Assembly: GCA_964035015.1 (NCBI GenBank)
Contig: OZ036004.1
Coordinates: 15,435,419 to 15,499,418, forward strand
Origin: Corallium rubrum
Lineage: Eukaryota; Cnidaria; Anthozoa; Scleralcyonacea; Coralliidae
Direction: 5' to 3'
DNA length: 64,000 nt
The translations under genes were made by a program, and so were the position numbers. Of the stretch, positions 21,701 to 24,700 are shown one piece after another. Each line of letters starts with the position of its first letter. The stretch's first letter is position 1. The notes under the pieces were generated by a model. The model had not been told where the DNA came from. It saw nothing but the letters and a program-made list of their open reading frames with translations, and did not search any database.

Positions 21701-24700
21701 TAGAGTCCGTTACTATTCAAAAAGAGTCAAAGTCGTCATATTATCCTATCCAAACTTCGTTATCAGATGAACTACAAGACAGACAGCCTAGAGATCACCT
21801 TGACGAACACAGCAAAAATTTAAGAGTAACAATTTCTTCTCCCACTCTCTTAAAAACGCAAAGGGGTGCTTCAAGTCTTATTGCAGCTCTTGGTAAGCAA
21901 AATGTTTCTTTATATAGATATGTGGCATTTTCCAACCAAACAATTTACTATTTTTGATTGCACTAATTCACTTTTCTTAGGGATATAGTTCGTTAATCGA
22001 GATCTCACTGAATAGTTATCTTGCTCTTGGTTAGCAGTAAGGAACTTACTTGAATCTGTCTAGAGCTCGATATGCGAAATGAAAATTTTTCCATGTAAAC
22101 ACTCATTTAATAGCCGGGCTGGCCTGTTTACCGGGATACCGAATAATATTTTGAGCTCGCTTTTTGGAAATTTGCCTATGTAACCAGGTCAATGTGTGTG
22201 AATATCTTATGTCACCTAGCCTTCGAAGTCTATCAAAATGGCACGAGTTCGAATGAAGAGTGCTATTTGAGGGTATGTTTTTCCAAATTACACAGAAACC
22301 CATGCTCTTACGTATTATTCTCAAACTCAATAATTCATGAGCTAATTAGCCAATCCGAGAAAAATATTTGGTCATGTGCATGAGTTTTGAAACCCGATAA
22401 AGGTTACTGAATTCATCATTAAAGTGCCACTAACCCCAAAAAATTTTTTTCGCAAATCTAAAAGCCCTTATTGAGTGGATTAGTCCAGTGAAGAAATTAT
22501 TGGTATTGGACATTTCTTTGGTCTTCTGTAGACCACCAAAGTTGCAAAAATTGGCATATGCATGTCCCATGGCGGAGAAGGAAAGGGAATGGGTATATTC
22601 CTGGTGTGACGTCAGACAAGCCAAACAAGGAGCTCATTTGAGCTCTGTCTGCTGAATGCATACAATTTTTACATTGAGTTAATTGGGAAAATGACTTTTC
22701 AACTCAAAAAATTCTATGTATTCACCAGACAGAGCTCAAAGAGTTCCTTGTTTGACTTGTGTGACGTAACACCAGGAATATACCCATTCCCTTTCCTACT
22801 CCGCCATGGGACATGCAGATGCAACTTTGGACGTCTACAGATGATCAACGAAACGTCCAATACCAATAATTTATTAACTGACCTAATCCACTCAATAAGG
22901 GCTCTTAGATTTGGGAGAAAAAGTTTTTGGGGTTAGTGGCACTTTAAGAACTCAGATAATAAACGGCACAAACAAAGAACCGTTATTGCCACATTTCTTA
23001 ATTATAGATTCAACATGAGAAATTAGATTATAATATACACCATTGTTTAATCTGATATGACCAATATCGCCAAGTCCCTCGCGAATTTTACTGAGAAGCT
23101 ATTTCATAAACTTGTGTATCGTGTTTTAGCAGGAGTTACAAACACTCGAGAACGACAAAAAATCACTCGGCCTATTACCTCGTATAATTTTCATTGTTCT
23201 CTCGTGTTTGTAAAACATTCGAAAACAATAAAAATCACTCGGCCTGCAGCCTCGTGATTTTCATTATTCTCTCATGTTTTACAAAGACTCGAGAACAATG
23301 AAAATTACTCGGTTAACGTCCTCGAGTGGTAAAACACTCCTACTCGTTTATGAAATATTACATATTAGTATCAACCTGATTGGCTGAGCTACTAGTGGTC
23401 TATTGGTGATAGACCATAGTAGCGTTATCCAATGATAAACCTTCTTATACCTGGAATACTCCTATTCTGACCAATCAGAAGCCACGGCATATTCACGCTG
23501 CGAGCAAAACCTGGAAACTAGGCCAAACATGGCGTCCGCTAAAATTTATATACGAGTGATGAAATCATGAAAACATTGACCCGAAAGTATTGGAAAATTG
23601 TTCAGTTTGACATTTTCGAATAAGAAAAGGAATTCGCTTATGTCTATGGAGTATATCAACACCAAATTTAAAGCAAAGTAATTACAATTCTCGTTTTTTT
23701 GTGAGCGATTAGTAGATGACCCCCCCCCCCCCCCATATAGGTAAACAAAGGGATGCCGCCTCATTAATATTCAGCGTGACTCACGCACCATGACTCACGC
23801 ACCATGACTCACGCATGACTCACGCATGACTCACGCCTGTGACATGATTGGGCAAGATTGGAATAATTATAGTATACATGAAGCTATATGAGCTTGGTGA
23901 TTTCGTATAGTTGTTACTTTTCCAAAAGTGTTTTACTTATCCATACGTAATGTCGCTGTGTGATATAGTTGCCGTGATTGACATGGATGGTTTTCACATA
24001 GGAAAGAAGTTCTTCTGTAAAGAACTAGGCGTTCTGAAGGTCGGAGAAACCGAAGGTTTATCGTTCTTCTTTGACTTTGGCAAGAAATGGGCTGACTTGT
24101 CAAGTAGAGAAAAGTATAATTGTAGATGGGTTGAAAAAAACATTTACCATTTACCATTCGGTGTCCCCCCATACACCAAGTACTATAAGATTGAGTGTTT
24201 GGGAGACATAATTTGGCAAATTTATGAAGAAGTTAAAATTGACGATACGTCGAAGGTTGCGTTCAAAGGTGGAAACTTAGAGCGTACAGTTTTAAAGGAG
24301 CTGGGAATTCCGTCCGTCAACCTAGAAAGTTTCGGCTGTCCAAAAGCAGAACATTTATTTGGTGCCTTGACATGGCTGCAAACGTGTGGAAATCATACAA
24401 AGATTAATGCATACCATCACTGTCCGAAAGTGGAAGTCGAAGCCTTTGGCAAATGGATAGCGCTCCAATAAAATCTACTAAACACAAACGGTTCTTTTAA
24501 GAACCACCAAATCAGTAAAGAGTACAATGAAATACTCGTTATGCTGTCTTCCCCGTATAATAAATCTCATGAGGGGTTAATTGGGGCGATGACATTAAAG
24601 TATCCGGCTAATAGCAATAAAAAGCATTACACCTAAATATTCAAACAGAGTAAGTCATCCTAGAATTATTGCTAACTAAACCCTTCTTTATAAGTGAGGA

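Follow-up and report, generated by a model that had tools for sequence, protein, structure and literature searches.

A complete histone pre-mRNA 3' signal, consisting of a stem-loop and a purine-rich downstream element, was found at positions 24490-24522 of the window (the whole 64,000-nucleotide stretch of Corallium rubrum DNA that was analysed), 18 nt past the stop codon of P0001, a 173-residue open reading frame (ORF) of a mobile element. By sequence, it is confirmed as a real histone-type signal. It is conserved among diverged copies of the gene, it is repeatedly associated with element genes elsewhere in the genome, and the host encodes an SLBP RNA-binding domain. From these comparisons, we consider it probable that the stem-loop and purine-rich element act as a functional histone-type 3' end for a gene of a mobile element and, taken jointly with this, that this small element is a Maverick/Polinton-like relict.

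The signal and the element that carries it

The P0001 ORF occupies positions 23950-24471 of the plus strand and ends in a TAA stop codon at 24469-24471. An A-rich stretch at 24476-24489, resembling the one found in host histone genes, leads into the stem-loop GGTTCT-TTTA-AGAACC (GGTTCTTTTAAGAACC) at 24490-24505, which is followed by ACCA at 24506-24509. The ACC is part of the pattern used for searching, and the last A is replaced by T in one subfamily of P0001 genes (subfamily B, below). Cleavage of histone mRNAs is expected just after ACCA. The sequence AAAGAG at 24517-24522 starts 12 nt after the stem and aligns with the purine-rich core of the histone downstream element (HDE) in other stem-loop contexts; by analogy, it is the candidate pairing site for U7 snRNA. 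All of these features lie on the plus strand.

The Rfam family RF00032 (Histone3) matched positions 24485-24529 with 34.5 bits, 0.5 bit above the gathering cut-off of 34 (E 3.2e-6 for 64 kb and 4227 families), and this was the only gathering-level Rfam match within the window. The pattern GGYYCT-N4-AGRRCC-ACCA likewise matched the two strands of the window only at 24490. A covariance model, R1, was built from nine host histone 3' ends only (two H1, one H2A, one H2B and five H4). It matched positions 24476-24537 with 56.5 bits (E 1.1e-10), and the next best match in the window had an E-value of 0.19. A chance match was rejected on the basis of the Rfam score, the R1 E-value and a reversed-pattern control that returned no sites. 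A histone pseudogene or a neighbouring histone gene was also rejected, as the ORF before the signal is P0001 and the searches showed no histone match nearby; the closest histone gene found on the contig, at a distance of about 9.8 Mb, is an H4 (L007, C22:5626244), which the Pfam histone search, scoring the best candidates only, had missed. The initial annotation had placed both parts of the processing signal directly after an element ORF with no histone gene nearby, and each of these statements was borne out.

Ordinary polyadenylation signals were also observed. An AATAAA overlaps the P0001 stop codon at 24467-24472, as had been noted before, and another, a possible fall-back poly(A) signal that is also found in subfamilies A and D, lies 37 nt after the HDE at 24559-24564 (both on the plus strand). 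The suggestion that the gene has two alternative 3' ends holds as a possibility for subfamilies A and C, where the AATAAA over the stop was present in 16/16 and 5/5 stem-loop copies, respectively. It does not hold generally, since this AATAAA was absent from subfamilies B (0/4) and D (0/4); it was also absent from the stem-loop-less copies of other subfamilies (0/23). Within 200 nt past the stop, AATAAA or ATTAAA was found in 31/43 flanks with a stem-loop and 19/61 flanks without one. Poly(A) signals were thus rejected as a correlate of stem-loop loss, because the counts lean the opposite way. Genes with the stem-loop are not short of ordinary signals, and ordinary polyadenylation is therefore possible; judged from the sequences, two ends may exist for these genes, as for some human histone genes (PMC9756948), or the ordinary end may be the one in use.

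The element itself spans 4,970 bp (23711-28680) and is bounded by inverted repeats of about 170-180 bp. The left repeat (23711-23889, plus strand) begins AGTAGATGACCCC and the right repeat (28514-28680, minus strand) ends GGGGTCATCTACT, as established by alignment of the two ends with each other; the AG..CT ends read AGTAGATGACC..GGTCATCTACT. Copies of the duplicated target site GCGATT stand on both flanks, at 23705-23710 and 28681-28686. Besides P0001, the plus strand carries ORFs of 238 residues (25758-26474, with an inverted partial copy at 24999-25172 on the minus strand), 105 residues (26905-27222, without a Pfam match) and 224 residues (27267-27941, acidic and Cys-rich). The earlier observation that other genes of the element end in ordinary AATAAA signals was reproduced for three ORFs, the signals lying at 26510-26515 after the 238-residue ORF, at 27955-27960 after the 224-residue ORF and, for a minus-strand ORF, at 24958-24963 as TTTATT. 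The 27267-27941 ORF and a minus-strand ORF at 25382-25915 are both acidic and Cys-rich and look related by eye; the Pfam matches of these two were weak only (E7 and DCA16, under the cut-offs). No PolB, integrase, ATPase or capsid was recognised by Pfam in the six ORFs scanned, and so the window element is at most a non-autonomous relative of elements that carry these genes. Elsewhere in the window, a Pao-type retroelement ORF of 1,745 residues lies at 56866-62103 on the minus strand (Peptidase_A17, E 1.5e-42), and an ORF at 45646-48141 on the plus strand contains DUF6570 and a Helitron-like N-terminal domain.

Conservation and genome-wide distribution

P0001 gave no Pfam or PHROG match and no significant match to PDB sequences. 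At least 152 homologues were found in the genome, those listed being 38-100% identical to the window copy. The initial annotation had proposed comparing the 3' flanks of such homologues, and 121 flanks were compared (61 from loci L009-L058 and 60 short ones from L059-L118). An intact stem-loop was present in 43/121, a lower count because two loci (L022 and L038) carry the stem-loop outside the scored stretch; 17/121 gave a partial match, a loose class in which mutated stem-loops are mixed with unrelated look-alikes, and 61/121 gave none. As these 61 flanks lack the signal, the stem-loop belongs to some lineages rather than to the P0001 gene as such.

A tree of 40 distinct ORFs, taken from 49 rows without stops, resolved seven well separated subfamilies divided by branches of at least 0.3 changes per site, four of them with the stem-loop (lost by a few copies) and three without. 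The stem-loop label changes seven times on this tree, against a mean of 13-14 for shuffled labels. The deep order is weakly supported, and either one or several origins of the stem-loop may fit the tree. The stem-loop is thus present in other copies and is invariant in the four diverged subfamilies that carry it. Between subfamilies A (which includes the window element), B and C, the stem-loop and ACC are identical at 19/19 positions, compared with 8-12 of the next 26 nt and 24-31 of the following 100 nt; third codon positions are 35-40% identical, near saturation, and the flanks of B and C are otherwise at chance identity to that of the window element. An invariant stem-loop and ACC beside near-saturated sequence indicates selection. 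Beyond the stem-loop, the DNA of subfamilies A and D is nearly identical, which indicates that part of the spread of the signal is due to recombination. Together with this A/D likeness, the remnant of a RING-type stem-loop at L032:751-810 suggests that element families have exchanged 3' parts with one another. In the subfamily of L048-L058 the P0001-like gene is followed, at a distance of about 230 nt, by a stem-loop remnant (for example, L048:880-937, minus strand), in which the 5' arm is deleted and the ACCAAAT and the HDE AAAGAATACAAACGAAAT are intact.

Intact stems are invariant within the P0001 family, so covariation is visible only across gene families. The P0001 group has the stem GGUUCU..AGAACC, as against GGCUCU..AGAGCC in all nine aligned host histone 3' ends. 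In an alignment of 32 contexts drawn from the sites of histone, RING, third-family (see below) and P0001 genes, pairing holds in 98.4% of stem cells, a conservation that is partly due to site choice because the search pattern fixed most stem positions. The third stem pair was C-G in 18 contexts, U-A in 10, U-G in one and unpaired in three. Its covariation score was 0.151 against 0.087 for shuffled alignments, with none of 500 shuffles as high; the change from C-G to U-A may have been a single event. Stems are imperfect at nine of the listed sites; at two of these, G-U wobbles are the only defect. An AAAG-type HDE motif was found 11-20 nt after the stem in 64/69 distinct stem-loop contexts, host histones included, compared with 0/30 and 2/63 control windows further down and upstream and a mean of 5.9/69 in shuffled flanks. 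Among the stem-loops lying within 400 nt of an ORF in L009-L058, 34/34 pairings had the stem-loop 3' of the ORF on the same strand, with none on the opposite strand and none on the 5' side.

The genome (474 Mb, 312 contigs) contains 106 exact sites for the pattern GGNNCTTTTNAGNNCCACC and none for the reversed pattern. One hundred listed sites of the 106 were sorted by hand, using adjacency and the reading or comparison of upstream ORFs. Histone genes account for 15 of these 100 (eight read, seven by position next to a histone match), the P0001 family for 45 (42 by position and three by comparison, one via 16 residues only) with five more by flank only, a RING-finger family for 27 with one more by flank only, and a third family, with a protein ending KENCPPSVMN, for three. 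Three further sites fell outside assignment, and the one in contig C39 (L171) was rejected as a histone-type stem-loop because it looks like an unrelated palindrome. Fifty GGTTCT-type sites were listed, and at 42 of them a P0001-like match precedes the site on the same strand at a distance of 17-204 nt. When R1 was applied to 86 selected loci of 171, 58 matches of at least 40 bits were obtained, a count that includes the window's own site and counts one site twice (it is held by both L008 and L037).

RING-finger proteins were detected in 29/60 stem-loop loci tested, with E-values of 2.1e-11 or better, and zf-RING_2 was above the cut-off in the three members scanned. The family comprises several subfamilies with 44-100% identity to three queries and includes weaker members (L161, L135) at 33-39%. 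A PolB gene of the Maverick type (PF03175) lies 2.9-3.2 kb from three RING stem-loop sites, on the same strand (C12:5599693, C18:1029700 and C1:76610326); three is a lower bound, drawn from the PolB matches listed. At the C18 site (L006) the gene order is RING, whose reading frame is split into two pieces in this copy, then the stem-loop, PolB (1,294 residues, PF03175 E 3.9e-50) and an integrase with rve and chromodomain. When 8,001 bases were searched with R1, no significant stem-loop was found after the PolB or integrase gene; the best match (19.8 bits, E 0.16) lies inside the integrase gene of L159. The third family is represented at L140 (C18:16541973), L155 (C151:52374) and L157 (C185:338217). 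The L157 protein gave no Pfam match, and the KENCPPSVMN terminus contains a KEN motif, which is a degradation signal for the APC/C.

Rfam matches outside the pattern revealed further non-histone ORFs adjoining stem-loops at L162, L164 and L165. These amount to two further unrelated ORFs directly before histone-type stem-loops, with ACTC or ACCC after the stem. A stem-loop without a long upstream ORF in the fetched stretch is present at L163, and L166, L167 and L168 show a histone-like stem-loop with the compensated stem GGCTTT-TGTA-AAAGCC (GGCTTTTGTAAAAGCC), for which no upstream gene was identified.

Proposed function and alternative explanations

As two sources describe, histone mRNA is recognised by SLBP at the hairpin and by the U7 snRNP, through base pairing, at the purine-rich element; it is cut just after the hairpin and receives no poly(A) tail (PMC9756948, PMC5011920). 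One of these also states that in Hydractinia, a cnidarian, expression of the canonical histones that have this signal is confined to S phase (PMC5011920). The SLBP domain PF15247 was identified in the host on contig C28 in two neighbouring stretches (E 1.2e-11 and 2.5e-7) that jointly span the domain; two TGA codons interrupt the second and were taken as an intron edge. The U7 snRNA family RF00066 had no match in this genome, nor in the control genomes.

By analogy with these histone messages, we infer the following course of events. The terminal gene of the element would be transcribed by host Pol II, and host SLBP would bind the stem-loop GGUUCUUUUAAGAACC of the pre-mRNA. The U7 snRNP would pair with the HDE, which would be AAAGAG at the window site, with GAAAGAAA and AAAAGAAA as other candidate pairing sequences. 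Cleavage after ACCA would then yield an intronless mRNA that lacks poly(A). Like the histone mRNAs of the host, it would be produced and translated during S phase and degraded once DNA synthesis stops. The signal would thereby mark genes whose products serve only while the host copies its DNA, and such a restriction would suit and presumably benefit an element that needs its own replication in the nucleus. The same signal was observed on several genes that are unrelated to one another and of which at least some belong to elements, and other genes of the same elements have AATAAA or no such signal. We lean towards the broader proposal that the virus-derived, Maverick-like elements of animals run an S-phase gene programme through the host histone 3'-end machinery, in which the RING-finger, P0001 and KENCPPSVMN genes would each have gained or kept SLBP/U7 signals and the replication genes would not.

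An alternative is that the signals are functionless relics of capture, histone 3' flanks having been transduced into elements whose genes are polyadenylated at ordinary signals. Decay of the kind this predicts is visible in the altered stems of L023, L029, L030 and L035, in the remnants without a 5' arm and in the listed sites with imperfect stems, and the stop-codon AATAAA of subfamilies A and C also fits this reading. We nevertheless regard this explanation as unlikely, because stem-loop and ACC have stayed identical between subfamilies in which neutral sites are close to saturation, the compensated stem was not seen in the host histones examined, and several genes unrelated to each other carry the signal at the same position past the stop, with the HDE kept. 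The 16-bp palindrome might instead act as DNA, for instance as an origin, a protein-binding site or a terminal hairpin, a reading that arises because the genes adjoin or sit inside inverted repeats. Many sites do form inverted pairs, and in L041, L044 and L046 the stem-loop lies inside inverted arms of 1.2-1.8 kb. Against this, orientation relative to the gene is fixed in every pairing counted above, the asymmetric parts, ACC and the AAAG-type HDE, are retained 3' of the stem with the spacing seen in histone genes, and the same composite is carried by host histone genes, which together make a purely DNA-level role very improbable.

Most remote of the alternatives is a decoy or self-control function. 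SLBP would then be titrated by RNA of the element, or else P0001, supposing that it is a DEDDh exonuclease of the ERI1/3'hExo kind, would act on the mRNA that encodes it. The DEDDh enzymes include ERI1, and DEDDh-like motifs had been noted in P0001 when its sequence was initially annotated. A DEDDh or RNase H-like match for P0001 was found neither in Pfam nor among PDB sequences, and a single-sequence fold prediction (pLDDT 39) was too poor for a structure search. The RING genes that bear the stem-loop, moreover, do not encode P0001. A working histone-type 3' end on element genes is the preferred explanation.

If this explanation is correct, mobile DNA would have a new way to sense host replication, and the SLBP/U7 route would be something that genomic parasites exploit. 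In animals, the stem-loop signal is not known outside histone messages, and to our knowledge the transcripts proposed here would be the first non-histone class of replication-coupled mRNAs that lack poly(A). If element genes do use the histone ending, the class of poly(A)-less mRNAs would be wider than the histones. The timing of element activity relative to host DNA copying would be directly testable. Poly(A)-selected RNA-seq would miss such transcripts and could hide Maverick-like activity.

No article linking Polinton/Maverick or transposable elements with the histone stem-loop or SLBP was found in the open-licence PMC literature. Among the matches listed for the histone stem-loop and viruses in the same literature, none concerned element genes, as far as the titles and the beginnings of the abstracts indicate. 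The word histone is absent from the main text of a Maverick survey, in the portion available (PMC8097293), and the accessible passages of another article name histone-like proteins of animal viruses and do not mention the mRNA signal (PMC11071296).

Comparison with Mavericks and with histone 3' ends

Target duplications of 6 bp and AG..CT ends are given as Maverick hallmarks in the available part of the survey (PMC8097293). Both are shared by the window element and its relatives L044 and L046, in which the ends begin AGTAGATTACC.. and AGTAAATTACC.. and the 6-bp duplications are CATGGA and GAGGCC; the P0001 ORF is present in both long inverted arms of these two relatives, and AGTA..TACT-type ends were seen among elements carrying P0001. 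The end motifs of vertebrate Mavericks, as they appear in the same part of the survey, are similar to the window element ends and not identical (PMC8097293). The window element differs from a Maverick/Polinton in its length of only 4,970 bp and in the lack of a recognised PolB, integrase or capsid among its six scanned ORFs, whereas relatives carry an A32-like ATPase (L048) or PolB and an rve integrase near a stem-loop-bearing gene (L159). In L048, a relative without an intact stem-loop, the ATPase lies between two P0001 copies, with a Pfam score of 20.3 against a cut-off of 22.8. No relatives were found in viral contigs by protein, alignment or stem-loop pattern, nor in phage records.

The human histone gene H2AC18 offers a parallel with two ends, in that it combines a stem-loop and HDE with an AAUAAA, just as AATAAA lies close to the signal in the window (at 24467 and 24559). 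It differs in being a histone gene and in that, according to the part of the source available, its AAUAAA overlaps the HDE (PMC9756948). Animal histone mRNAs in general are described in the accessible text of PMC12775136 as a unique class without poly(A). With the metazoan histone 3' end (RF00032, SLBP/U7 snRNP) the coral signal shares the stem pattern, a UUUA or UUUC loop, ACC(A) after the stem and an A-rich lead, as well as an AAAG-type element 12-16 nt after the stem and a stem-loop that usually lies 15-50 nt past the stop of an uninterrupted ORF. The difference is that here the signal is carried by non-histone genes of mobile elements.
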